From an uncultured Armatimonadota bacterium (GTDB lineage Bacteria > Armatimonadota > Armatimonadia > Armatimonadales > Armatimonadaceae), in the NCBI GenBank assembly GCA_903910385.1, contig CAIVZM010000005.1, positions 1 to 40,136 of the forward strand: 40,136 nt of DNA. The letters are read 5' to 3'. The notes under the pieces are model-generated. The model was not told the origin of the DNA. It did not search any database and saw only the letters and a list, made by a program, of their open reading frames with translations. Of the stretch, positions 26,401-31,451 are shown in pieces. The position numbers were made by a program, and so were the translations under genes. Position 1 is the first letter of the stretch; the number at the start of each line of letters is the position of its first letter.

Positions 26401-26578
26401 ATTTCCATGGGCAATCTGCGTTGCCGTTCCTGGGAGAGATCGGAGCAATGCTGTCGGCGTTCCTCATCCGTTTGATAGTATCGGCGTGCGCCATCCGGGC
26501 GGACGCAAACTAACCTCAGTTCCGTAATAGGAACTCCACGAACGCGCTTCCAGATAAGAACGTATAAACGTATAAAAG

Positions 26579-26607
26579 ACCGCGAACGTCTACCCCGTTC
26601 GCGGTCG
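26579..26607. terminator. 11-base perfect hairpin ahead of the FHA operon
   Basis: GACCGCGAACG (26579-26589) pairs perfectly with CGTTCGCGGTC (26597-26607) around a 7-base loop. On the minus strand it is followed by CTTTTATACG, so it would act as a terminator there, perhaps against antisense transcription or for the decayed gene once present. On the plus strand it would be a stable leader hairpin 70 bases before the FHA gene. Confidence 0.55.
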
Positions 26608-26676
26608 CCGTTTCCACCGATTCGCAACCTTTCCCGCCTGAAGGTGTCGGAAAAGTCGCGGAGGAAAGATACTTCT

Positions 26677-27996
26677 ATGGCGCGGGATGTGCTGGAAAGT
26701 CTGCACAGGCGATTGACGGGGCTTTATGACAAATTGACCGGGGCGGTTCCCGGGGACTATGATTTGCGTCCGCGTGATGTCGTGCGGCGCATTGTCGAGG
26801 CGATGGAAGACCGCCAGCGAGAAGGTCTCGATGGTAACATTTATGTTCCTAATGTCTATACTTTGCAGGTGACAGTCGAAAACGACGACGAACGCCAGTA
26901 TCTGCGGACATTTCTGGGAGCCAACGAACTTGCTGCCGCTCTGGCGGATGAGATTTCCACTCGTGGCTACTCGGTGCGAGGCATGCTGGTCTTCACGGTG
27001 GATGAAGTTAACCCTGTCCGATCGGTCACTAGCGCCCCTGCGGAACGTGTCCGGGTGTTGTGTAAATTCGACCCGAACGCCGGAATGAATGATCCGACGC
27101 CCGGAATGGCAAACGCCGCCGGCGGTAAAGAAGAAACGCCCGCTCCCGCTGAGCCGGGCGCCGTATCGTCAACTCCCGCGCCGGAATCCCACGATGATCC
27201 GGGGACGTTACCGGCGGGCGCGACGACTCTGGCGCAAATTTCGCTTGTTTCTCGAAACGGAGAACTCGGTAAAACCTTTCCTATCAGCGTTCAGGGCGCA
27301 AAAATAGGGCGCGGCAAAAATGCCGGCAACACCATCATTCTGGATAATGATCCGCTGATTTCCAAAAGTCATGCGCGAATCGTCTTTCAGGGCGAAGGTT
27401 TCCTGATCTACGACCAGAATTCCATGAATGGAACAGTGGTGAACGGAAAATCGGTAACGCCGGCGACCGGGGTTCCGTTGAGCGATGGCGACGAAATTCA
27501 GATCGGGGACGCTCATCTTCGTTTTGTCGAATTTGGCGGCGATAAAACGCTGCCCCGTGGCGGAATCGCTCCTCGAGCGTCCTCTGCGCCCGATTTAGCG
27601 GCGACGGGCATCGGCGTATCCGGATTCCCAATGTCGGCGATGGGAGCGACCATTACAGGCGGCCTCGCCTTCTGTATGGTCGCAGGAGACGGAACCGTCT
27701 TTCCGCTGGCGTCCCATATGACGATAGGGCGATCCCTGACGGAAGATATCTCTCTGGTGGGCGACGGGGTGGCGGCGCACCATGCGCTTTTAAGCGCCCG
27801 TGAAGAAGCAGTTTACGTGGAAGACGAAGGGACGCCCGGAGGCACTTTCGTCAATGGGGAGCGTATTCCCGCTCATTTTCCAGTGGCGTTATATCCCGGA
27901 GATGTGGTCGCTTTCGGAGGGGTTTCGCTCCGCATACAAAAAGGCTACAATAGCGGTTATAATAAAGTCGAAAACGGGGCGGGGCGCGGATTTTGA
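26677..27996 (+). CDS. FhaA-like protein: DUF3662 domain plus two FHA domains
   Basis: The 439-residue cytoplasmic protein starts with a DUF3662 (FhaA N-terminal) domain (about residues 1-115, from RDVLESLHRRL to TVDEV). A Pro/Ala/Glu-rich linker (about 130-190) leads to a canonical FHA domain (about 200-285: IGRGKNAGN, then SKSHARI, then NGTVVNG), able to bind phosphothreonine. A second FHA domain follows (about 345-425: IGRSLTEDI, then AAHHALL, then GGTFVNG). In the second domain the SxxH motif is AAHH, so phosphopeptide binding may be weakened. ATG 26677 has GGAGG 12 bases upstream; a GTG at 26644 is the alternative. Its stop overlaps the start of the phosphatase gene. Inferred role: adaptor recruiting phosphorylated partners of the downstream kinase. 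Confidence 0.9.
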   Translation: MARDVLESLHRRLTGLYDKLTGAVPGDYDLRPRDVVRRIVEAMEDRQREGLDGNIYVPNVYTLQVTVENDDERQYLRTFLGANELAAALADEISTRGYSVRGMLVFTVDEVNPVRSVTSAPAERVRVLCKFDPNAGMNDPTPGMANAAGGKEETPAPAEPGAVSSTPAPESHDDPGTLPAGATTLAQISLVSRNGELGKTFPISVQGAKIGRGKNAGNTIILDNDPLISKSHARIVFQGEGFLIYDQNSMNGTVVNGKSVTPATGVPLSDGDEIQIGDAHLRFVEFGGDKTLPRGGIAPRASSAPDLAATGIGVSGFPMSAMGATITGGLAFCMVAGDGTVFPLASHMTIGRSLTEDISLVGDGVAAHHALLSAREEAVYVEDEGTPGGTFVNGERIPAHFPVALYPGDVVAFGGVSLRIQKGYNSGYNKVENGAGRGF

Positions 27997-29597
27997 GTCA
28001 GTACACAGTCGGATTTAAAATTGATATCGGACGGCAACGTTCGACGAACGAAGATGCTGGGGCGGTTTTTGACGCATCCGGTTGTGATGTCGCATTTGTT
28101 GTGTGCGACGGTATGGGTGGGATGGCTGCAGGAGAAGTCGCTGCCGCCGAAGCGGTTCGTGTCGTTCAGGAAACTATCGTCGCGCGTTTTGCCGAATCCT
28201 CCCCGGAACCTATGATTGTCCTCCGGGAAGCTTTCGTTCGGGCAAACGATGTTGTCAATGCCAAAAATGCAGTTGAGCGAACTGTCCGGCGTGCGGCGGC
28301 GCAGGAAAACGATATCGAGTCGGACAGGGAAGATTCCGGTGAAGACGCGCGTGCATTGATGGGCACCACCTGTGTAGCGGGCGTCATTCGCGCAGGAGAA
28401 CTGTTCCTCGGGCATGCCGGAGACTCGCGGGCTTATCTCTGGCGTAGCGGAAGACTGATGCGTCTGACCGATGATCACTCCTTCGTCGGTGAGCGTGTCA
28501 AAGCCGGGGATATGACCGAAGCGGAAGCGAAGAAGAGTCGATTCCGCAACATTGTTACCCGCGCTATCGGCATTGATGAGAAAGTGGAACCGGAACTGCG
28601 ACAACAACCGCTCGAACCTGGAGATCTGCTATTAGTCTGCACCGATGGTCTGACGACAATGGCGGATGATTCTGAAATCGCGGGAATGCTGTACGCTCCT
28701 TCCCTGCGGAATGCGCCTCCGAACCGTATTGCTGATGTTCTGGTGGACGCTGCCAATCGCCGGGGTGGAAATGACAATATCAGCGTTCTGACTGTTCGCG
28801 TTGCTGGCGATGAAAAAGAGCGGGAAGGCGTCGGCGAAACCGGTGTAGAATCGGGACGCAGTATAGCGTCGCGCCGGGATACGAACTTCGACAAGGTGGC
28901 TTCTGTTGATATATCGAAGTTGATTCCCGCTCTGGTTGGGGCGGGAGCGATGCTGGCGCTTTTGCTTCTGGCGTTCGCACTGGTTCCGTCTCTGAGCGCG
29001 TTTTTGCCAGGTAATAGTGGGAAGTCCCCAACGCTTGCTAACGGTTCCACGAATTCCGTTATCGACTTTTCCCACCTGAAATATGATAAACCGGTCTCCT
29101 TCGGCAATGTACTGGCGCGTGGCGAAATGCTTTCCTATGTTCCGGGAATCGGTCTGTATTGTGTGGGTGGAGCGTCGGGTCATGTCTCTGTACTGGATGC
29201 GAACGGCAAACCGCAAAAACCCGTAGAGAATATCGGTATCGTTGAGCGGGAACTCGATGAGGCTATTCCGTCGACCCGCGCCTACATGACGGCCGATATG
29301 CAGGGTAATGTATATCTTTCCTTTCCCCGTCGCAAAGTTATTGTCAAGAAAAGTCCGGACGGCGTGACACTGACCATTCTGGATGGATTTGACCGCCCTG
29401 AAGCGATGGCTGTAGATGAAAAGGGAAACTTATTCGTGGTAGACTTGAATCAAATTAAAGTCTGCCGCGCTATCACTGCCGCCACGACGCCTGCGGCTAC
29501 GGGAGCATCATCTTCTCCCTCTCCCGTCGCATCCGCCACGCCTGCCTCTGCTACCAGAGAAACTGCCAGAAAGCCGATACAGGGTTCCGGGCAGTAA
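27993..29597 (+). CDS. membrane PP2C Ser/Thr phosphatase with extracytoplasmic propeller-like domain
   Basis: The 534-residue protein has a cytoplasmic PP2C domain (about 1-275) with all main motifs: RSTNEDAG, VVCDGMGGM, GDSRAYLW, LLVCTDGL and GGNDNISV, giving metal-binding Asp residues for a working phosphatase. An acidic insertion (about residues 105-120) precedes MGTTCV. A single membrane helix (about 309-336) is followed by an outside domain (about 340-500) with NHL-like repeats (YMTADMQGNVYLSF, PEAMAVDEKGNLFVVDLN) and a Thr/Ala/Ser-rich tail. TTG 27993 is the start: its TTGA overlaps the FHA stop codon, so translation is coupled. The membrane and sensor-like part on the phosphatase is the unusual feature of the operon. 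Confidence 0.9.
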   Translation: MSQYTVGFKIDIGRQRSTNEDAGAVFDASGCDVAFVVCDGMGGMAAGEVAAAEAVRVVQETIVARFAESSPEPMIVLREAFVRANDVVNAKNAVERTVRRAAAQENDIESDREDSGEDARALMGTTCVAGVIRAGELFLGHAGDSRAYLWRSGRLMRLTDDHSFVGERVKAGDMTEAEAKKSRFRNIVTRAIGIDEKVEPELRQQPLEPGDLLLVCTDGLTTMADDSEIAGMLYAPSLRNAPPNRIADVLVDAANRRGGNDNISVLTVRVAGDEKEREGVGETGVESGRSIASRRDTNFDKVASVDISKLIPALVGAGAMLALLLLAFALVPSLSAFLPGNSGKSPTLANGSTNSVIDFSHLKYDKPVSFGNVLARGEMLSYVPGIGLYCVGGASGHVSVLDANGKPQKPVENIGIVERELDEAIPSTRAYMTADMQGNVYLSFPRRKVIVKKSPDGVTLTILDGFDRPEAMAVDEKGNLFVVDLNQIKVCRAITAATTPAATGASSSPSPVASATPASATRETARKPIQGSGQ

Positions 29598-29675
29598 CAG
29601 ACTTTTGAGGAGAAGGCCGATCTCATCCGCCCCGGAGCGTCTCAGACCTGTGTCATCGGAGAAGGAATTTCACAG

Positions 29676-31451
29676 ATGCCCATCGGAACGATTGGCAAAT
29701 ATGAGCGGTTAGACGTTCTGGGGCATGGCGCTTCAGGCGTCGTTTATCTGGCATGGGACACCCTCCTGAGACGCAATGTGGCGCTGAAGGAAATCCGTGC
29801 GGACGCCCCGGAACTGGATCGCATCCTCGAAGAAGCTCGTTTGCTGGAGCGTCTCCGTGACCATCCCTACATCGTTCGCGTCAATTCTGTCGATCGTGTC
29901 AACGGGGTTGTCCTGATCGACATGGAATTGGTGCGCGGGCGTAATCTTGCAGATGTTTTGCGGGAAACGCCAGGGCAACCGCTTGTAATAGCGGAAGCGT
30001 TGCGAATTGCCCTTGCGGTTCTTGAAGCCCTCGGCTATGCGCACGAACGCCGCATCGTCCATCGAGACATCAAGCCGGCGAATATTCTCATCGGTGACGA
30101 TGGAACGATCAAACTCACCGATTTCGGCCTGGCGGAAGCCCTGGGGTCCGGTTCGGTCGCGGGCGGCGGCGGGACGTTCCCTTATATGGCTCCGGAAGAC
30201 TTCGCGGAAGAATCGGAATCGGATTATCGCGCCGATCTCTGGGCGGTAGGCGTTGTTCTGTATGAGCTTCTTTCCGGGCGACGTCCCTTCGATGTAGCTC
30301 GTAAAAAAGACCCTTTCGCCTGGAAGAGAGTTATTTGTGAGTCCACTCCGCCTCGTTTGACGGAGTTGAATCCGTCTGTTCCGGTATCGCTTGCCGCTCT
30401 GATCGAACGCGCTCTGTCCAAAGATAAAGCAGACCGATTCCCGACTGCCCAGATATTCGCCGACTCCCTTCGTAGCGTCGCCGCAAACCTGAAGCCCAAT
30501 GCCGTAGGAGTGATTCCAGCAAGCAGCGGAAATGCGGCGCCTTCTCCCTATGACCCCATCCCGCTTCCGCCTGCTGTACCATTCATCTTCAGTAACGGAG
30601 ACGCCGCCTATACTCTGGATCAACTGCTGATCGGCGCGGCGAAAAATTGGGACGGAAGCCGCGCCGCCTTATTGGATGGGCGTTTCGAGCGTTTTCTGAT
30701 CGCTATCGGCGAAGTCCACATCGCAGAACTTGCCGCCGATCTTGCCTCTCGATTTCATGAAAGTCAGGATTCGCGTCTTCAGGAATTTTTGTACCGTTCA
30801 CACCCTGATCCCCCGGAACTGGTCGTGAGCGAGGATGCGACATTACCTCTGGTCGGAAGAGTGAATCTGTTCCGCCGCCCGAAATCGGCGTCAACCATTG
30901 GCATAACGACGACCGATACAAAGGCGGGGAGCGACTCAAGCGGAGGGTCGGAAAAACTGTTCGCCCCTTCGATTCCGGAGGCTAAGACCATTGCGCCGAA
31001 TCCGCCATCGTCTCGAAGCGCAGGTAAAATCATCGTTTTTTGCCTGCTGTATCTGTTGACCCTATCTCCGGTAGCGGTTGCCTTTGTGATGCGTAGCGGA
31101 TGGTCCTCCCGGCGTATGGGGGTATTTAATGATGTCGCTGAAGCCTGTGCGATCTCCGGGCTACTGGCGGCGATGTTGTTGCCGATTGGGGTGCGAGCGA
31201 ATGTACCCGCCGCATTACGCGCCCTGTGTTTTATTCCGCTGGCGTTCGGACTAGCCTGTCTGGGCGCGATCGGCTCCGCGATGGTTGGGACTGCCCCCTC
31301 TCCGGAAACGTTGCTCCGTCCGGTAATGGGTTTGCTTGGTCTGCTCTCGCTTCTGATTTTGGAAACGGCGACCGCTCGTAAGGGATGGAAAGTATGGTCG
31401 CTTCTGATTGCCGCCGCTTCAGCGCTTTCTGCCGCCTGGTATCTGAGGTAA
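29676..31451 (+). CDS. Hanks-type Ser/Thr protein kinase with five C-terminal membrane helices
   Basis: The 591-residue protein has a full kinase domain (about 8-270): glycine loop LGHGASGVVYL, Lys38 in VALKE, a C-helix Glu near 52-53, HRD at 129-131 with Asn136, DFG at 149-151, and MAPEDF. All catalytic residues are present. The activation segment is short and Gly-rich, with few phosphorylatable residues (Ser158, Ser160, Thr167). A linker (about 280-450) leads to five hydrophobic segments (about 451-471, 487-503, 510-530, 546-563, 570-588) and a very short end. No PASTA or other outside sensor domain exists. GAAGGA lies about nine bases before the ATG. It lies 78 bases after the phosphatase gene, in the same operon. 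Confidence 0.93.
   Translation: MPIGTIGKYERLDVLGHGASGVVYLAWDTLLRRNVALKEIRADAPELDRILEEARLLERLRDHPYIVRVNSVDRVNGVVLIDMELVRGRNLADVLRETPGQPLVIAEALRIALAVLEALGYAHERRIVHRDIKPANILIGDDGTIKLTDFGLAEALGSGSVAGGGGTFPYMAPEDFAEESESDYRADLWAVGVVLYELLSGRRPFDVARKKDPFAWKRVICESTPPRLTELNPSVPVSLAALIERALSKDKADRFPTAQIFADSLRSVAANLKPNAVGVIPASSGNAAPSPYDPIPLPPAVPFIFSNGDAAYTLDQLLIGAAKNWDGSRAALLDGRFERFLIAIGEVHIAELAADLASRFHESQDSRLQEFLYRSHPDPPELVVSEDATLPLVGRVNLFRRPKSASTIGITTTDTKAGSDSSGGSEKLFAPSIPEAKTIAPNPPSSRSAGKIIVFCLLYLLTLSPVAVAFVMRSGWSSRRMGVFNDVAEACAISGLLAAMLLPIGVRANVPAALRALCFIPLAFGLACLGAIGSAMVGTAPSPETLLRPVMGLLGLLSLLILETATARKGWKVWSLLIAAASALSAAWYLR

Follow-up and report, generated by a model that had tools for sequence, protein, structure and literature searches.

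A conserved FhaA-like, PP2C and Hanks-type kinase gene cassette in Armatimonadota, with a predicted NHL-like outside domain on the phosphatase

The window analysed here is a stretch of 40,136 nucleotides from an uncultured Armatimonadota bacterium (contig CAIVZM010000005.1 of assembly GCA_903910385.1). Between positions 26677 and 31451, its plus strand carries three consecutive genes, coding for an FhaA-like protein, a PP2C phosphatase, and a Hanks-type Ser/Thr kinase (hereafter, the cassette). A preliminary description, made from the letters alone, had reported this row of genes and the TTGA overlap of the first two, and all three open reading frames are indeed found as described. The phosphatase and kinase genes are separated by 78 bases. 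Directly 5' of the FHA gene lies a strong inverted repeat (26578-26606), resembling a minus-strand terminator, although there is no clear gene ending at this point on that strand; scans for promoters and terminators yielded no usable signal. The features of the locus are as follows.

26677..27996, plus strand: gene of the FhaA-like scaffold/reader protein (439 aa; ATG at 26677 with GGAGG upstream; alternative start GTG at 26644)
26707..26994, plus strand: FhaA_N domain (residues 11-106; PF12401, E 1.9e-7, 31.9 bits, cut-off 25)
27301..27507, plus strand: first FHA domain (residues 209-277; PF00498)
27664..27948, plus strand: second FHA domain (about residues 330-424; second stretch of PF00498, and FHA2 profile)
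27993..27996, plus strand: TTGA overlap in the sequence, the PP2C start TTG lying over the FHA stop TGA
27993..29597, plus strand: gene of the membrane PP2C phosphatase (534 aa; TTG start)
28035..28781, plus strand: PP2C catalytic domain, predicted cytoplasmic (PF13672/PF00481; R16, D21, DGMGG, TDGL, and GGNDN conserved)
28929..28985, plus strand: single transmembrane helix (residues 313-331; hydropathy 2.62; in the same place in 51/51 homologues)
29064..29474, plus strand: NHL-like domain, predicted extracytoplasmic (about residues 358-494; about three blades)
29676..31451, plus strand: gene of the Hanks-type Ser/Thr kinase (591 aa)
29700..30461, plus strand: kinase catalytic domain (VALK, HRDIKPAN, DFG, and APE intact)
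30537..30818, plus strand: small helical 'NW' domain, predicted cytoplasmic (residues 288-381; conserved in relatives of our families f1 and f2; low-confidence helices in the model)
31011..31445, plus strand: five-helix membrane bundle at the kinase C-terminus, without an outside domain

The first protein, which was traced through 61 genomes, can be assigned to the FhaA type by its FhaA_N match (31.9 bits against a cut-off of 25) and by its FHA domains (PF00498, two domains, E 4e-34), of which it has two, one of them C-terminal, where FhaA has one. The second matches PP2C_2 (E 3e-17), and an alignment of 15 sequences shows the metal- and phosphate-binding residues of PstP/Stp1-type phosphatases (the R16, D21, DGMGG, TDGL, and GGNDN region) to be conserved; the NCBIfam model Stp1_PP2C_phos scores 205.4 bits, below its curated cut-off of 230. 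Its layout, one membrane helix followed by an outside C-terminal domain, is that of PstP. Orthology to actinobacterial PstP is nevertheless unsupported, as the cassette PP2Cs form one clade of their own in the PP2C tree (support 96); no actinobacterial PstP is found among the nearest rows of that tree.

The preliminary description had given the phosphatase one membrane helix and an NHL-like domain beyond it, while cautioning that a domain with only three visible repeats might be incomplete or of another fold. The helix and the domain are both borne out. In a search with the single protein, the domain matches the sensor of PknD (1rwi, E 5e-10), together with the Pizza designs, and the family profile matches 1rwi, a solved NHL propeller, with an E-value of 8e-32, summed over repeated stretches. 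Pfam NHL scores 12.9 bits on the window protein, under the cut-off of 20. AlphaFold2, run at low confidence on a three-sequence alignment, builds three sheets, with a pLDDT of 54.5 overall and of 74-81 only for the last two blades. Foldseek searches with this model return propellers and propeller fragments, including Pizza3 and the PknD-345 fragment 8pkr. An NHL propeller-like fold class is thus well supported, more so than the exact number of blades or their closure. The tail following the helix is predicted to be propeller-like rather than disordered, and most probably lies outside the membrane rather than in the cytoplasm. The window copy is not a truncated one, since every homologue has a domain of about 140 residues, and a degenerate or incomplete domain can be ruled out, the same short domain being kept in 51 homologues, where positions D, G, Y, I, G, P, and G are invariant. 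In the monomer model, it has about three blades, against six or more in a closed propeller; it may, therefore, close into a ring by dimerising. In the 44 genomes searched outside the phylum, no end-to-end match to this domain was found, only NHL repeats in other proteins.

The third protein matches Pkinase (E 1e-48) and retains the VAIK Lys, HRD Asp, and DFG Asp of active Hanks kinases. Neither a Pfam nor a PDB search gives a match for its 'NW' domain, and the C-terminus has none in Pfam. The AlphaFold2 model, also a low-confidence one from three sequences, places five helices at the C-terminus (446-475 to 571-590) and no outside domain, in agreement with the earlier reading of the kinase. No PASTA or other outside domain is found on it by domain search or in the model, and its match to PknB_PASTA_kin (210 bits, cut-off 450) is confined to the kinase domain.

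Conservation was followed with FhaA_N, PASTA, and outside-domain profiles run over 291 Armatimonadota genomes, and the counts given below come from the fetched loci. By their record titles, the relatives of this genome are Armatimonadota, one fetched relative being labelled Chthonomonadia. The membrane helix between the catalytic and outside domains, and the NHL-like domain itself, are present in all 51 PP2Cs. The kinase gene directly follows in 49 of the 51 loci and the FHA gene precedes in 36, some of the absent neighbours being due to contig ends; in family f2, which belongs to the same taxonomic order, the FhaA gene is unlinked. Conversely, none of the 41 full-length partner kinases carries an outside domain, and each has a C-terminal membrane bundle in which W and P residues are near-invariant. 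A simple hydropathy scan counts five helices in 27 of them, four in 12, and three in 2, and the few longer loops that it leaves are most simply read as helices under the threshold. The cytoplasmic middle of these kinases is more variable: 8 have the 'NW' domain, as in the window, 27 another conserved domain, 5 both (all in f2), and 1 neither. Homologous operons had been called for in the preliminary description, with a sensor on any homologous kinase as the result that would overturn it; no homologue has one. On comparison of these sequences, the domain split, with the outside domain on the phosphatase and none on the kinase, is established across the Armatimonadota cassette family, and the three proteins appear as a conserved module of some Armatimonadota. 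The arrangement is far beyond chance, as many families of this phylum show both the three-gene order and the split. Separately, two loci of family f28 (L178:5456-6898 and L179:4128-5501) hold a PP2C with the same outside domain and no adjacent kinase.

The sensing role had also been proposed to have moved from kinase to phosphatase, which is not supported in that form, as it implies a PASTA kinase that lost its repeats. In the kinase tree, the cassette kinases form one clade (100% SH-aLRT) on a long branch, and all PASTA kinases fall elsewhere, together with actinobacterial PknB, so that derivation from a PknB-like kinase by loss of PASTA is rejected; the genome, moreover, keeps a PASTA protein on another contig (C39), with degraded kinase motifs.

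Several known systems offer points of comparison. The mycobacterial operon holds fhaA, fhaB, rodA, pbpA, pknA, pknB, and the phosphatase together (PMC11898655), in line with the linkage given in the preliminary description. Its picture of sensing by PASTA repeats on the kinase is incomplete, as PstP, a transmembrane phosphatase conserved in Actinobacteria (PMC6554272), itself has an outside domain: in M. tuberculosis, a cytoplasmic catalytic domain is followed by one membrane helix and a periplasmic domain held by disulfides (PMC12421883). An outside domain on a membrane phosphatase beside FhaA is, therefore, already known and not new in itself. What differs here is the fold of that domain, a kinase of another clade without an outside domain, and a module without PASTA; literature searches found no paper on an FhaA-PP2C(NHL)-kinase module. 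With the M. tuberculosis-type locus, the Armatimonadota module shares the FhaA_N/FHA protein, the one-helix PP2C with an outside domain, and a Hanks kinase, as well as cell-wall genes, which lie within the former and beside the module in two relatives. It differs by lacking fhaB and carrying both FHA domains on a single protein, and by having an NHL-like outside domain, no rodA or pbpA in the window, and a kinase with five membrane helices. The fhaA-fhaB-rodA-pbpA-PASTA kinase loci of other Armatimonadota (f11, f16, f21, f43, and f45) share the phylum, the FhaA_N protein, and the cell-wall linkage, but combine a short one-FHA FhaA, a separate FhaB, and an intact PASTA kinase, with no PP2C carrying an outside domain. 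M. tuberculosis PknD also uses an NHL propeller outside the membrane in Ser/Thr phosphorylation signalling, as the 1rwi match recalls, although there six blades sit on a kinase, against about three on a phosphatase in the window. Adjacent PP2C and kinase genes are shared with the PrpC-PrkC pair of Firmicutes, which differs in its soluble PrpC and in having PASTA repeats on the kinase as the sensor; the PrkC locus is better resembled by the degraded PASTA kinase gene of this genome, next to rpe. In Candidatus Geothermincola, where the order is fhaA-fhaB-PP2C-rodA-pbpA-kinase, a PP2C with a membrane helix carries a PASTA domain on the phosphatase (L074:3554-4882; PF03793, E 7e-10), which is another way for this enzyme to come by an outside domain.

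The surroundings of the cassette in some relatives hint at the cell wall. In two loci of family f7, FhaA is preceded, at distances of 7 and 61 bp, by a gene in which RodA/FtsW and PBP are fused. These adjoining genes (L040:11414-14392 and L182:806-4018) code for HHH, RodA/FtsW, and PBP transpeptidase in one protein of about 1000 aa. Similar fusions are widespread in the phylum: most families that bear the cassette have them elsewhere in their genomes, and they are also present in some genomes that lack it. No such fusion lies beside the window cassette, and the genome itself shows only two unfused SEDS proteins. A membrane-anchored HEAT-repeat gene, absent from the window, directly follows the cassette kinase in 15 relatives (among others, L040:5591-7018, L163:9177-10736, and L184:2387-3958), and its product is a possible fourth member of the module. 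Because of the RodA/FtsW-PBP and HEAT-repeat neighbours in relatives, and of the known role of FhaA, control of peptidoglycan synthesis and of the cell wall is the best guess for the process targeted, and a likely one.

The reading preferred here, to which we give a probability of about 0.55, is that of a membrane-anchored Ser/Thr module in which the NHL half-propeller regulates or places the phosphatase. We infer for it the orientation of the outside domain, a phospho-relay, ligand or dimer control, and a cell-wall target. The kinase, anchored through its five-helix bundle, would phosphorylate targets; the FhaA-like protein would read phospho-threonine through its two FHA domains and serve as a scaffold; and the PP2C, anchored by one helix, would strip the phosphates. 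The three-blade half-propeller, the module's only extracytoplasmic domain, would most likely regulate or place the PP2C, two half-propellers perhaps pairing, and the likely target would be peptidoglycan synthesis, as in the actinobacterial fhaA-pstP-pknB system. Signal-controlled dephosphorylation through the outside domain, as first suggested, is a fair hypothesis judging from the sequences. Nevertheless, the domain need not sense, as the periplasmic domain of mycobacterial PstP, which has the same layout, is non-essential and of unknown function (PMC12421883).

That precedent favors a rather doubtful alternative, in which the domain is merely an anchor, a localisation signal, or a protein contact on an ordinary PstP-like phosphatase with a lineage-specific tail, control lying elsewhere. 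The outside tails of the actinobacterial PP2Cs fetched (about 75-140 aa) are unrelated, which indicates that the tail varies freely between lineages. However, within this lineage, every homologue keeps the domain with its invariant positions, and its fold class is that used by the PknD sensor.

Less probable is an entry of signals through the separate, degraded PASTA protein, as a receptor activating the cassette kinase or as its docking substrate, with a passive phosphatase. PASTA proteins were found by profile search in 278 of the 291 Armatimonadota genomes. The one encoded here (L052:5224-7284, on G000:C39) is likely a pseudokinase, with HGDVRPQN (HGD for HRD) and NFG for DFG; its gene is preceded by aroB and followed by rpe, with shikimate genes next to it. 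None of the eight PASTA proteins read from family f1, to which this genome belongs, retains the DFG Asp, and FhaA binds a phosphorylated pseudokinase (MviN) in mycobacteria. Against this, the PASTA gene and the cassette are on different contigs, with no physical link, and some cassette families (f5, f24, and part of f9) keep DFG together with HGD, so that their PASTA proteins may have remained active. In other families, the PASTA kinases linked to fhaA have intact motifs. Degradation of the PASTA kinase cannot be tied to the cassette, since PASTA proteins of the HGD type are also found in families that lack it.

It is unlikely that the kinase itself senses through its five-helix bundle (a lipid, the membrane state, or a membrane partner), which would leave the sensor on the kinase. 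The presence of the bundle in all full-length cassette kinases, its near-invariant W and P residues, and the membrane HEAT-repeat gene after the kinase in relatives are consistent with such a role, but no family match gives the bundle a function. Other kinases manage with one-helix anchors, although this does not show that the bundle senses. A defence function as an anti-phage kinase is rejected, the PADLOC matches (PD-T4-6, MADS, and BREX PglW) being generic ones that span the kinase domain only and leave the FHA protein unmatched.

Improbable as a whole is a bolder form of the preferred reading, a 'receptor phosphatase' whose NHL half-propeller, completed by a dimer or a partner, controls the PP2C against a sensorless kinase, with FhaA as reader, to govern RodA-PBP synthesis, the f1 PASTA receptor being now a pseudokinase. 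In the common picture of bacterial Ser/Thr signalling, it is the kinase that carries the sensor, and the phosphatase is unregulated. In its layout, the Armatimonadota module reverses the textbook PASTA-kinase arrangement; a kinase without an outside domain, beside a phosphatase that always has one of recognisable fold, offers a clean natural case for asking whether dephosphorylation can be an entry point for signals. The module also bears on what the PstP outside domain does, and gives the actinobacterial-type cell-wall phosphorylation locus a counterpart in another phylum, built with a different kinase clade.

Two further loci deserve mention. In an Eggerthellaceae locus (L076), a SEDS-PBP match falls in one 935-aa frame. 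The genome of the window itself has a second cluster of FHA, soluble PP2C, and kinase genes (L051:5170-16777, on G000:C22), with several FHA proteins.
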